Source: Willaertia magna
Taxonomy: Eukaryota > Heterolobosea > Eutetramitea > Acrasida > Naegleriidae
Length of the DNA stretch: 64,000 nucleotides
NCBI GenBank assembly: GCA_902984215.1
Contig: CADWAF010001251.1
Coordinates: forward strand, 1-64,000
Direction: 5' to 3'
Of this stretch, positions 42,796 to 64,000 are shown piece after piece (positions within the stretch are counted from its first letter, which is position 1; each line of letters starts with the position of its first letter). A program made the position numbers and the translations under genes. The notes under the pieces were generated by a model. It worked only from the letters and a program-made list of their open reading frames with translations. It had not been told where the DNA came from and searched no databases.

Positions 42796-44296
42796 TTACG
42801 TACCAATTTTCCCCTTACGGATATGTTAGTTCTTATTATAAGGGAACATGGCATAGTGGTATGATTCTCGAGAGGCAAGGAAAAGAAGAAAAGTCATTCA
42901 GCGTGATTTTCTCTTAAATAGTTTCTTAAAGTTAGCCATTCATATTTTAAAGTGAAACTTCCTAAAAATTTATTAATGGACAAACAATTTTTGAAAATTA
43001 AAATAATAAATTTATATTAAAAACAAATAGAAATAATTTTAACAAAACTGAATCATTTATTACAACTATAAATAGTAATAATAAAATATGTCATTTACAA
43101 AATAATAATAAAACAGTTGCAATTGAGTTCACATCACCATTAATAAAAACAATATAATATTATATTATTTTTTAAATAAAAAATAATTTTTTTAAAAAAT
43201 TTAATATTAAATATTTTATAATTTATTATCTAATCATATAATATACTCTTTATTTTTTTAATTTTTTTCTTAAAATTTTTTTTTATTATTTATTTATTTA
43301 TTAAAAAAAAATATTTTTTTTATCTTTTTATTTATAAAATACATAAATTATTTTTATTTAAATAAAAACTTTTCTGAATAGAATCTAAAAATAAAAAAAA
43401 ATAATATAAATTTATTTTTTTAAATTCTTTTCATTTTTAATTTTTTTTAAATAATTATTTTAACATAAAAAATATTTTTTTTTAATAGTGTACTGTTAAT
43501 TGTATAAATTATATAATTTTTTAAAAATTCTATTAAAAAACTTTTATTTATTTTTTTAAAAAACTATAGAACTACTGAGTAATAATTTAAAAAATAATGT
43601 TTTAAAATTTAATAATAATTTAAAAAAATAATATTTTAAAATTAATAAATTATATTATTATTTAAAGTTTTTTTATTTATTTTAATTTTTAAATTAAATA
43701 TTATTTATTTTAATTTTTATTTTTTATATATTTTTAAATTATTTATAAAAAATTAATTATATATTTATATTTTTATTTGAATATTTTAATAAATTTTTAA
43801 AATAAAATATTTATAATTTTTTTAAATTATTTATTAAATAAAAATAAATTAAAAAATATTTTTATAAATAAAATAATAATTTAACTTTATTTGTTTAAAT
43901 ATTTTAAATAAATTTAATATTGTATTATTTAATTTAAATAAAAATTATTAATAAATATTATAAAAAATTATAAAATTAAAATATTGAATTATTTTATTTT
44001 AAAAAAATAAAAATTATTTAAGATATATTTTATAGTAAAAATATATATTTTTGTAAAAACAATATAATTATAAACATTCCAAAACAAATTTTTCTTATCC
44101 ATTTTCTAAAAATTTTTAATTAAACAATATCTTTAATCATTATTAACTTTTTTATCTTGCTCCCAAAAAAAAATTATTATTGTTATCAATTTAAAATTGT
44201 AAATACTTTGCCGCCTTGAGAATTGTGGTACGGTAAGTTAAATGGTAAGTTTATTTTTAAAAAACTAACTACAAAAAAAACAAAGCAAGAACAGCA
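42796..44296. other. 1.5-kb intergenic region containing an extreme A/T island
   Basis: Between the BPL_N-type gene and a coiled-coil gene. The first 160 bp have normal intergenic composition and include a tRNA D-arm-like string (42846-42877). From about 42960 to 44130 the sequence is nearly pure A and T; many 60-base lines have no G or C or only one to four. No tandem unit, ORF or inverted repeat of note was seen. Possible roles are replication origin, boundary or neutral drift (inference). Confidence 0.6.
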
Positions 44297-57484: not shown

Positions 57485-60127
57485 TAAATTTATTATTTAT
57501 TTAAATTTTAATATATAATTTACTAATTGTTATTATTGTTAATAAAAATTATTATATTATATTAATATATAAAAAATTATGAAAAAAATTAATAATATTT
57601 AAAATAATTAATTTTAAATAATAATATAAAATAATTAAAAAACATTTAAAAAAATATAAAATATTTATTTTTATTTATAAAACTATTAATAATATTTTTT
57701 TATTTAAATATTCTATCTATAAAATTATATTTTTATTTAATTATAAAAATTATTATTATGTTTAATTATGTTTTTAAAAATATTTAAATAAAATTATCAA
57801 TTTAAATACTTAAAAATAAATTTTTTTTTATATTTTTTAGAAATAATATTTATTATTAATAATAATATTATTTATTATTTGTAAACTAATAAAGTTAATA
57901 AAATATTATTAAATAAAAATAAATAGATAGTTATTTTTAATATAAAATATTAAATGATTGTTCATTGTAAAATATTTTAATGATTTGAATAAATATAAAA
58001 TAATAAATAAAATTTTATTTTAAATATACATTATATTTATTTATTCTTTATTAAAAAATAAAATATATAATTTAATAACTAAAATATATTTAATTAAATA
58101 AATATTACTTATTTATCTACAATAAAAAAAGAATTTTATTTTGTATTTAATTAATTTAATTAAAAAAATAAACATTATTTTATTTTTTTAAAAAATCTAT
58201 TTTTTACATATCAATATTTTACTAAATATACCATATTTAATTTTTTTATTCTTTTTTCAACAAATATAATTTTAATAAAAAAATTCTAAAAAAATAAGTT
58301 TATTATTTTTAAATAAATATAAATTTTTTTTTAATAAATATTTTAAAATCATTTCTTTTTTAAATTAATATTAAAACCAATTTTTTACAAGTAAAATTGT
58401 TAATTTTTAAGTATATTTTAAATTTAAATTTTAAAAAACTTTAAAATGTAAAAAAAATATCTTTAATTTATTAAAAATATCAGTTTTTTATAATAAATAA
58501 CTTGTATTTATTAATGTTAATGTTAAAATTATTTTAATTTTTTTTAAAATAAGTAAAAATATTATGTTTTTAAATTAAATTAATAAAATTTTTATTTTTA
58601 CTTTATAAAAATAACATTAAATAATAATTGTATATAAAAATACATTTTTAATACTAAATAAAAATACAAATAATATAATAACAAATATACATCAATAAAA
58701 ACATTTAAAATAATTATTAATCTAAAAAAAACAAATCATATTAATAAAAAGAAACTAAAAAAAAAATAATAAATTACTTTAATGAAAATAGACAATTATG
58801 AAGTTTATGCTATTATTTTGATAAATAAAAAAGTTTTAAACAATATAAAAAAAACAAATAAAACTTTAAAAAATTAATTTTTAAAATAAAAAAATCTAAA
58901 TTAATTTTTAAAATAAAAAAACAAAAATAATTTTTGTATTTCATAAGAGATAATAGAAAATATGAATTTTTTTTTATGAATAAAACAATAATTTTAAGAA
59001 AAAAAATTAAAAAAATAAATAAATAGTATATTATGAGATTATATAATAAATAAATTATAATGTATCTATTTGACATTAAATTTCTTAAAAAAAAATATTT
59101 TTTATTTAAAAATATTTAATATGGGACTGTTAAAAATAAATTATATTAAATAAATATATTATAATATTATTAAAAATTATAAAAATTTTATTAAAATTAA
59201 GTTATAAAAAAATATATATAGTTATAAAATATTTAATATTTAATTATTTTAAAACAATAAAAAAAAAATTTAATTTTTAATTTTAAAAAAAATTAATTTG
59301 ATATTTTTAATTCAATTATTTTATAATATTTATTTTTAATATTTAAATAAAAAATATATTTTAAATATTGAATATATAAAATTTTAATTAAATAATAAAT
59401 AAATTTATTAATTTTGTTTTTTTATTGTTATTAATAAATTAATAACATTAAAAATAATTAAAAAAATTTATATATTTATATAAAAAAAGATATTTTAATT
59501 TATTATTAATATTATTTATATCAATAATAATTTAAATCATTTATTAAATTTATAATTACAAAAAAAATTATAAAATAAAATTATAGAATAAAATAATTAT
59601 TTATTTAAAAATAATTTATTATCAATAATTAAAAATAATTTAAAAATTTTTTTGTAGCAAAATAATTTAAAAGTAAAATTATTTTAATAATTTATATTTA
59701 ATTTAATTTATAAACTTTATTTTGGTTTTACTTTAATTTGATTATTAATTTTATTTTAAAAAATAAATATATATATTTACAAGTTTAATTATATTAAAAA
59801 ACAATATTTAAAAATAAATTATAATTATTACTTATAAAAGTAAATAAAAAATATATAAATTAAGATAAAAAATAAAAATATTAAAAGATTTAAAAAATTA
59901 TAAAAGAAAATTAATTGAAATAAATAATAAATTTAATAATATTATAAATACTATAAGAAATAAATTTTAAATTAAATATAAAGACATTTTAGTTTATAAA
60001 GAAAAAATAAAAAAATTATGGATTAATTAAGAAATTTTTTAAGTAAATTAAAATGTATTAAATAAGTTGTTAGATTATATTTTTTTTGATTTTTTAAAAC
60101 AAAAAATATGAATTTTCATTTAAAAAA
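57485..60127. other. 2.6-kb extreme A/T island
   Basis: Sequence of almost only A and T from the RCC1-like stop to the SS18-like start, with long stretches lacking G and C. Short A and T runs alternate. I found no tandem unit, no long inverted repeat and no credible ORF; the 87-aa open frame at 58813-59076 (-) is low-complexity Phe/Leu/Ile/Tyr. It is far longer than the usual 100-350-bp gaps. Point-centromere-like or origin function is possible, as in some A+T-rich protists, but not shown. Confidence 0.65.
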
Positions 60128-61592: not shown

Positions 61593-64000
61593 ATGAGCAA
61601 CAACAAAATCTCTATAAAGGATACATTAAACGAAGAGAACGCCAGAACACTATCATTAAACAACGTAAAAAGCACTAATGACATTGTGATAGACTCATTA
61701 GTTTCTAACTCATCTATACTAAAGAACATTAAAACATCCGATATAAATAAAAGAAGAAAAGAAGGTTCTTTTGATGACACTGCTTTCAAAAACAGGAACG
61801 CTACTAATGGAGTAAAAAAGACATTAAAAACAACAGATGATATAGATGATATATTACTCCATAGAAAGAATGATAATTTAAAATTAGCAGCTTTAAGTAC
61901 TTCAACCTTTAAATCTAGATTGCGAAGTCTAAGTACAGCTCCTGAGGAGAACCTTTCTAAACCAACTACAACTATTGAGACAGTTTTAAAAACACTTCAT
62001 GAAGATGATGATGAAACAAATACTAGTAATGAGTTAAATGAACCACTTCCTGCTTTTAAAGATATAACTGAAGAACTACACTATTATGTAAAACATAATA
62101 TGATTGATTTACTTAAAGTTACTTTAGAAAAGGAAAAGGAAACAAAAGATAAGGAAAATAAACCTTTTAATATTAGTAACCAATATTTAGAAAAAGATAC
62201 TAATAATTGTACATTACTTCATAAAGCAGCTGCTAACAATCGATTTAAAATTATGGGAATTTTAATTGAAGATTACAGAGCTTTAATTGAAAAGAAAGAT
62301 ACAAATGGTTCAGTAAGTAATAATTGTTGCCTTATATTTATTTTTTTTACAAATGCGTAAAAAAATACCATTTATAGACACCCTTATTTTATGCTGTAGC
62401 TAATAATTGTGTTCGTTCCTGTGCTTATCTGTTAACAAAAGGAGCTAAACCTAATGCTAAGGATAACTTTGAAACAACTCCATTATATTTAGCCTTAAAG
62501 AAAGGTTATATTGACATTGCTAAAACATTAATATTATTTGGAGCTGATGTAAATTATAAAACTCAAAAGGGAGCAACTGTTTTACATCTTTGTTGTGAAG
62601 AGGGTTCTATAGAAAAAGTTGATTTCTTGTTAGAGCATGGTAAGTATTTTCTTTCAATATTTTAGTTTCTAAAAAGCCTTAAATCATCTTCTATATAGGT
62701 GCCTCTATAACAAGAACGAATAGAGATGATCAACATTGTTTGTTCTCCGCTGCCCCTCATCCTGCTTTAATGGAATATCTTTGTAGATATTTATCCAGTT
62801 CTAGTGAAGAAGAAGCAACCTTAAGATTAACACAATTAAAAGAAGAGAATAATATATTAATTACTTCAACTACACAAAATAATGAAATTGCAAATCAAAA
62901 TAAAAAAGATCTAGAAGTAGTTGGTCAGATTTCATTTGCAAGTACTGTTCCAGCAAGTAAAGAAAAACCAACATTAATTAAATTAGTGAATAGAATGTCT
63001 TCACAAGGAATGTCAATTGTACATTATTGTGCATTCTTCGGATATTTAGCTTCATTAAAAGTAATTGTAAATTATTTACCTGCTGAATCAATGACACAAA
63101 TTTTAAATGAAAAAGAGAAAAAGTATGGAGATACACCTTTACATGTTGCTGTACGTAAGAACCAAAGGGATGTAGCTCAATTATTAGCTAGATCTAGAGA
63201 AGTAGATGTTGACGCTGTTAATGACCATTCAGGTGATACCCCATTACACCTTGCAATAAATAACCAAAATCAAGAAATGGTTACAATTTTAGTTGCTGCT
63301 AATTGTAGTACAGTAATTAAGAATCATGCAAAATTAACAGCAAAGCAAACAGCAAAGAAATTTAATTTAAATTTAAAAGTAGAAGAAGAAAAACAACTAA
63401 GAAGTTTAAAATCTCGTCAATCAATGACATTTTTCCAAAAATTCAAAAGTAAATTTAAAAAAGAAGACCAAGTAGATGAAAAGAAGAGACATACATTACA
63501 AAGTAAAAGACTTTCAAAAACTTTAGGTAATAATAGTCAAAGATTTAGTCGTAATTCTTCCTCAATTGTAACTGTAATGCAAGATGATATTGAGGAAATG
63601 ATAAGGACTCAACCTTACTTAAAATGGAGTGTTAAATTTGAATTTAATGAAGAATTAAATATTCATCACAAAGAAATATTTTATATTATAAACAAATTAT
63701 ATTTCTATTGGGTAGCAGATCAACATTCCATTCAAATACAAATTAGCATTTCAGATTTAATTGAAAAATCAAGAAAGTTTTTTGAAAAACAAGAACATTT
63801 AATGAAGGAAAGAAATTTCACCCACACTGCTTTTGAAAGTCATAAACACGATCATGACTTATTCTTAAAAAGAACAGAAAATTTATTACACAAAATTAAT
63901 ACTGAGGATTATATTATTGATGAAGATGAATTTACTTTAATGTCAACTTGGTGGGTGTCTCACATTATTAGACACGATAAAAAACTTGTACAAGATACTG
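61593..64000 (+). CDS. Ankyrin-repeat protein fused to a degenerate hemerythrin domain (3' end cut off)
   Basis: Exons 61593-62312, 62378-62639 and 62699 to beyond the window; introns of 65 and 59 nt; 761 complete codons visible. Joins: KDTNGS|TPLFYAVANN and FLLEH|GASITRTN. The N-terminal ~160 residues are Ser/Thr/Asn-rich. About seven ankyrin repeats follow, for example CTLLHKAAANNRFKIMGIL, TPLYLALKKGYIDIAKTLI, TPLHVAVRKNQRDVAQLL and TPLHLAINNQNQEMVTIL. A basic linker (FFQKFKSKFKKE) leads to a hemerythrin-like domain from residue ~630: LKWSVKFEFNEELNIHHKEIF, FFEKQEHLM, HKHDHDLF, WWVSHIIRHDKKL. His25, His73, His77, His101 and Asp106 equivalents are kept. His54 is Phe (63778-63780) and Glu58 is Gln (63790-63792). 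Confidence 0.9.

Follow-up and report, generated by a model that had tools for sequence, protein, structure and literature searches.

A gene at the end of a 64,000-nucleotide stretch of Willaertia magna DNA (contig CADWAF010001251.1; we call the whole stretch the window) encodes ankyrin repeats joined to a hemerythrin-type domain in which Phe and Gln stand in place of two iron ligands, and the same replacements are present in Naegleria-type relatives. Given this shared loss, the domain has probably been retained for another job, for example holding a single metal ion.

Gene structure, domains and surrounding DNA

The ankyrin-hemerythrin gene occupies positions 61593-64026 (+) in three exons, and its stop lies 26 nt past the window end. 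After splicing it encodes 769 aa that match the database prediction P0001 residue for residue. The parts of the gene are as follows.

61593..62312, +, exon 1: N terminus of low complexity, followed by the first ankyrin units; residues 1-240 (open reading frame, GT-AG intron, Ank matches)
62313..62377, +, intron 1: 65 nt, GT-AG, phase 0, just before a TPLFYA ankyrin motif
62378..62639, +, exon 2: ankyrin repeats
62640..62698, +, intron 2: 59 nt, GT-AG
62699..64000 in the window, +, exon 3, stop ending at 64026: end of the ankyrin stack, followed by the linker and the hemerythrin domain
63370..63603, +, basic linker, residues 552-629: 43/75 identical to N. lovaniensis
63610..63996, +, hemerythrin-type four-helix domain, residues ~632-760 (TIGR02481, AlphaFold2 and PDB matches)

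A preliminary description of the window had claimed that the ankyrin and hemerythrin parts are fused in one gene. This was borne out by the spliced product and by exon 3, in which a single uninterrupted 447-codon frame spans the last ankyrin units through the hemerythrin domain.

Residues 1 to ~155 are of low complexity, with pLDDT mostly <40. Several ankyrin repeats scored over the Pfam cut-offs (Ank_2, 139.7 bits), and residues ~167 to 563 gave structural matches to ankyrin proteins. For the C-terminal domain, AlphaFold2 prediction and PDB structure matches indicated an antiparallel four-helix bundle with hemerythrin topology. The bacteriohemerythrin model TIGR02481 (cut-off 51.75) gave 57.2 bits for the isolated domain, 51.5 bits, just under the cut-off, for the same domain inside the whole 769-aa protein, and 58.5 bits for the N. 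lovaniensis relative P0003. The full-length model (pLDDT 63.7, pTM 0.46) is no sound guide to the placement of the ankyrin part relative to the hemerythrin domain.

The preliminary description had proposed a Pfam search for both parts. The Ank families were found over their cut-offs; the altered hemerythrin domain, which TIGR02481 reports, was not returned by Pfam. Specifically, Pfam Hemerythrin (PF01814, gathering cut-off 25.3 bits) gave no hit to P0001 or P0003 at E <=10 and none to the isolated window domain at E <=1, with the reservation that HMMER's filters may drop weak matches. Because that model does not report it, the altered domain would be missed in surveys that use Pfam Hemerythrin.

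Within the linker, a hydrophobic-basic stretch, FFQKFKSKFKK (63430-63470, residues ~572-585), has FWGSLFKSKK as its counterpart in the canonical paralogue described below. This stretch may make a membrane or calmodulin contact.

Upstream of the gene, ~2.5 kb of the window (57501-60000) has a G+C content of 3 to 10% vs 27% window-wide, and positions 43001-44000 form a similar but shorter low-G+C stretch. Directly downstream and outside the window, from contig position 64066 on (L008:5067-9999), there is a protein kinase domain with a Pfam score of 169.5 bits; the frames after it carry a P-loop-like stretch, GQASFGKT, that has no Pfam match, and HEAT repeats come next. If these frames form one gene, they would encode a kinase-NTPase-HEAT protein.

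The iron-ligand sites

Ligand positions are numbered 25, 54, 58, 73, 77, 101 and 106, as in sipunculid hemerythrin. The corresponding residues of the window protein are listed here.

63667..63669, +, H651: His25 equivalent, kept (Fe2)
63778..63780, +, F688: Phe for His54; an Fe2 ligand is missing
63790..63792, +, Q692: Gln for Glu58; a bridging carboxylate is missing
63841..63855, +, H709 and H713: His73 and His77 equivalents, kept (Fe1)
63961..63963, +, H749: His101 equivalent, kept (Fe1)
63973..63975, +, H753: position 105, a new His adjoining Asp106
63976..63978, +, D754: Asp106 equivalent, kept (bridging)

The earlier claim that five of the seven ligands are kept thus held, for His25, His73, His77, His101 and Asp106, and the Phe and Gln that it placed at His54 and Glu58 proved to be F688 and Q692. 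Misalignment of the ligand places was ruled out, as two independent alignments agree.

In the N. fowleri hemerythrin, three His are bound to Fe1 and two to Fe2, Glu and Asp bridge the irons, and Fe2 has the open site where O2 or NO can bind, as described in part of PMC11964265. Given these ligand roles, the change in the window domain takes away a bridge and one of the two ligands of Fe2, while the Fe1 set (three His and Asp) is whole. The full set of seven ligands of a di-iron O2-binding hemerythrin was absent from all three altered proteins (the window protein and its two relatives below), each of which has the equivalents of F688 and Q692. The ligand set does not predict a di-iron site that binds O2 reversibly.

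Position 105 is His in 3/3 altered proteins and Thr in 5/5 canonical ankyrin-hemerythrins. Summed angles on an ideal helix put H753 on the core-facing side, 20 degrees away from the pocket residue 98 and 40 degrees away from His101, and it could be a substitute ligand. However, the altered and canonical groups are often fixed for different residues at the same column of this domain, so the His at 105 may be just another such difference.

A separate difference is W746 (63952-63954), present in the W. magna window protein only, at the place of an O2-pocket Leu (98 of sipunculid hemerythrin, 114 of McHr) that is Leu in the other seven proteins.

Relatives, conservation and family history

When the window domain region was used as query, 834 candidates yielded two proteins besides itself, P0002 (488 aa) and P0003 (1088 aa; N. 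lovaniensis C9374_000577). In each of them Phe, Gln, the five ligands and the new His beside Asp106 are as in the window protein. Conservation of Phe and Gln, which the preliminary description had left to be checked, was therefore seen in 2/2 recovered orthologs, and the architecture that it proposed to look for elsewhere was found in N. lovaniensis and in a second W. magna gene. Because the orthologs keep Phe and Gln, the five ligands and the new His, we regard the gene as a conserved paralogue, not as one decaying copy. P0002 and P0003 are ~95% alike in the altered domain (122/129) and so amount to hardly more than a single comparison; the conservation of the altered pattern is read from W. 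magna and these two near-alike Naegleria-type proteins.

Further searches for the altered type gave little. A search from P0002 returned P0002 only, which reflects length limits or want of relatives, and the recovered relatives of the window protein included no N. gruberi or N. fowleri ortholog. In a six-frame search of the W. magna genome at E <=10, the altered domain gave, apart from its own locus, a single match, at E 0.2. The assembly used for the W. magna searches is 19.2 Mb, the draft genome is given as 36.5 Mb in the portion of PMC7696429 consulted, and our assembly may be partial or from another strain. Among bacteria and archaea, a scan with a single pattern yielded 56 pattern matches, from which one relative remained, a Geobacteraceae hemerythrin with, by eye, His and Glu at the two altered places.

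Between the window protein and N. lovaniensis, identity is 24% in the N-terminal region (33/137), 62% in the ankyrin part, 57% in the linker and 53% in the altered domain (69/129); the canonical domains of P0004 and P0007 are 72% identical. Judged by these identities, the altered domain is changing faster than its canonical sister, yet is clearly kept. Over eight proteins, 12 of the 113 gap-free columns are invariant, and 5/7 ligand columns are among the 12 (P about 1e-4). The altered pair W. magna and N. lovaniensis, taken alone, keeps 5/5 of these ligands, which is weaker evidence (P 0.04).

The second W. magna ankyrin-hemerythrin gene, on contig C221, has the same order of parts and all seven ligands in a product of 653 aa, one residue different from W. 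magna ABK040_002300 (P0004). The preliminary description had pointed to a complete hemerythrin at 28.4 kb of the window for comparison; this seven-ligand paralogue on another contig is the more telling one. It is by far the best match to the ankyrin region (E 3.4e-21; next, 7.6e-5). Intron 1 has the same place and phase in both genes (before TPIFYA in the paralogue); intron 2 is missing from the paralogue, whose second exon continues. P0005-P0008, two of them from N. lovaniensis, match the canonical type and keep the seven ligands, P0006 and P0007 being identical in the hemerythrin domain. Thus P0004 and these relatives are like the window protein in domain order, and P0004 also in intron 1 and in its ankyrin region (36% identity). 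Unlike the window protein, the canonical paralogue has all seven ligands and Thr at 105, and Pfam Hemerythrin is reported for it.

Ankyrin-region identity is 62% for the window protein vs P0003 and 69% for P0004 vs P0007, and only 36 to 38% between the altered and canonical types. Because of these identities and the shared intron 1, one fused ancestor was most likely doubled, as a whole gene, before Willaertia and Naegleria parted. The hemerythrin domains of the window protein and the canonical W. magna paralogue share 21/118 residues. In a tree of hemerythrin domains (11 rows, 10 different, one partial), the altered and canonical groups each fall on one side of a branch, a split that is weak (66/76) and at which long branches meet, so that this tree gives little guidance on whether the altered domain arose from the canonical one.

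In this genome, Pfam Hemerythrin has seven matches (contigs C659, C599, C112, C671, C269, C221 and C342). Four look HHE-type, one of them by score only, and three, including the ankyrin paralogue, resemble the O2-binding type.

Possible roles of the altered domain

The best reading, which we hold tentatively and at about even confidence, is that the domain is a single-metal or metal-responsive module, derived from hemerythrin and carried on an ankyrin scaffold. The window protein would then be a cytosolic-type ankyrin scaffold with this module at its C terminus, one of two old Willaertia/Naegleria paralogues whose sister would retain the full di-iron site. The altered module would have given up the O2-binding iron (Fe2 without His54) and the bridging Glu58, and its pocket would hold one metal ion via His73, His77, His101 and Asp106, or bind metal only reversibly. 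Metal occupancy might then change the stability of the bundle or a binding face, and a partner held by the ankyrin stack could read out the occupancy. The gene structure, the ligand pattern and its conservation are observed and the fold is predicted, whereas we infer the metal binding, regulation, partner binding and cytosolic location of the window protein. One metal is favoured because the full Fe1 set is kept. The altered pattern shared by both orthologs, the invariant ligand columns, the far stronger conservation of the domain than of the N-terminal region, the full-ligand paralogue and the core-facing H753 also speak for this reading. Counting against a single metal, the available part of PMC12022348 reports that changing the bridging Glu to Ala abolishes iron binding at hemerythrin sites; the faster divergence than in the canonical sister weighs against it too.

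We consider a more specific form of the single-metal reading unlikely: a mononuclear 3-His/1-Asp site, with H753 gained as helix B lost two ligands, would make the protein an ankyrin-coupled heterolobosean metal/redox sensor beside its di-iron sister. A mononuclear site of three His and one Asp is the type found in Fe/Mn superoxide dismutase.

The main rival, to which we give a lower but still appreciable probability, is a metal-free pseudo-hemerythrin whose fold is retained only for packing or for binding other proteins. The remaining His and Asp would then be structural and could have a packing role. The loss of the bridging Glu and the faster divergence than in the sister fit this rival, and the long block YWVADQHSIQIQI, conserved between genera and away from the site, suggests a kept surface. 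There is also a precedent in a eukaryotic regulator, since BTSL2, as described in PMC12022348, retains its H2 fold although this fold lacks a di-iron centre. However, plain metal loss should release the former ligands, and they are instead over-represented among the invariant columns.

Less probable still is a rebuilt dinuclear or re-sited centre, in which helix-B ligands were lost and new ones gained (H753 in helix D, perhaps also D680 or H670), so that the changed site would still take two metals or would differ in selectivity. The core-facing His at 105, confined to the altered group, would suit such a centre, as would D680 and H670, which are also conserved in the three altered proteins only. 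However, H670 lies well ahead of the site in sequence, D680 is two turns from F688, and H753 belongs to a domain rich in group-specific fixed columns. It is highly improbable that the gene is a decaying redundant copy (pseudogene, drift) or two genes wrongly joined, and both explanations were rejected: faster change than in the sister and the Trp at pocket position 98 of the window protein would be in keeping with decay, but the exon is intact across the ankyrin-hemerythrin border, and the same architecture is annotated in N. lovaniensis with the same substitutions.

Published work already describes altered hemerythrins as well as eukaryotic hemerythrins that act as sensors. In the literature searched, no paper with hemerythrin or haemerythrin and ankyrin in one protein was found, as judged from titles and the starts of abstracts, nor was any pairing hemerythrin with pseudoenzyme, and the sections consulted of PMC4919030 and PMC2556348 make no mention of ankyrin. 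Long hemerythrin proteins of N. gruberi are reported, with the fusion partner unnamed, in the same sections of PMC4919030, and a table in the seen part of PMC7696429 has two hemerythrin-like proteins for Willaertia. With one full di-iron site and one altered site, the paralogue pair, of the same architecture and from the same genome, offers a ready experiment on the conversion of a metal-binding fold.

The window domain is like bacteriohemerythrin (TIGR02481; Methylococcus McHr, PDB 4xpx) in domain score, four-helix fold and 5/7 ligands in register, and unlike it in having Phe and Gln for His54 and Glu58 and in the ankyrin fusion. The iron sensors BRUTUS/BTSL2 and FBXL5 are, like the window protein, eukaryotic multidomain proteins with a hemerythrin-type fold; unlike it, they are E3 ubiquitin ligase or F-box proteins, and no F-box or RING-type ligase domain was among the 10 Pfam families returned for P0001 at E <=10. 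Iron-ligand residues are also lost in 58/327 bacterial hemerythrin sequences and one annelid protein, according to excerpts of PMC2556348, so that ligand loss in a recognisable hemerythrin is a shared feature. The alterations in those excerpts are mostly in helix C (45/71), with only 5 at acidic residues, whereas both changes in the window domain are in helix B and the bridging Glu is lost.
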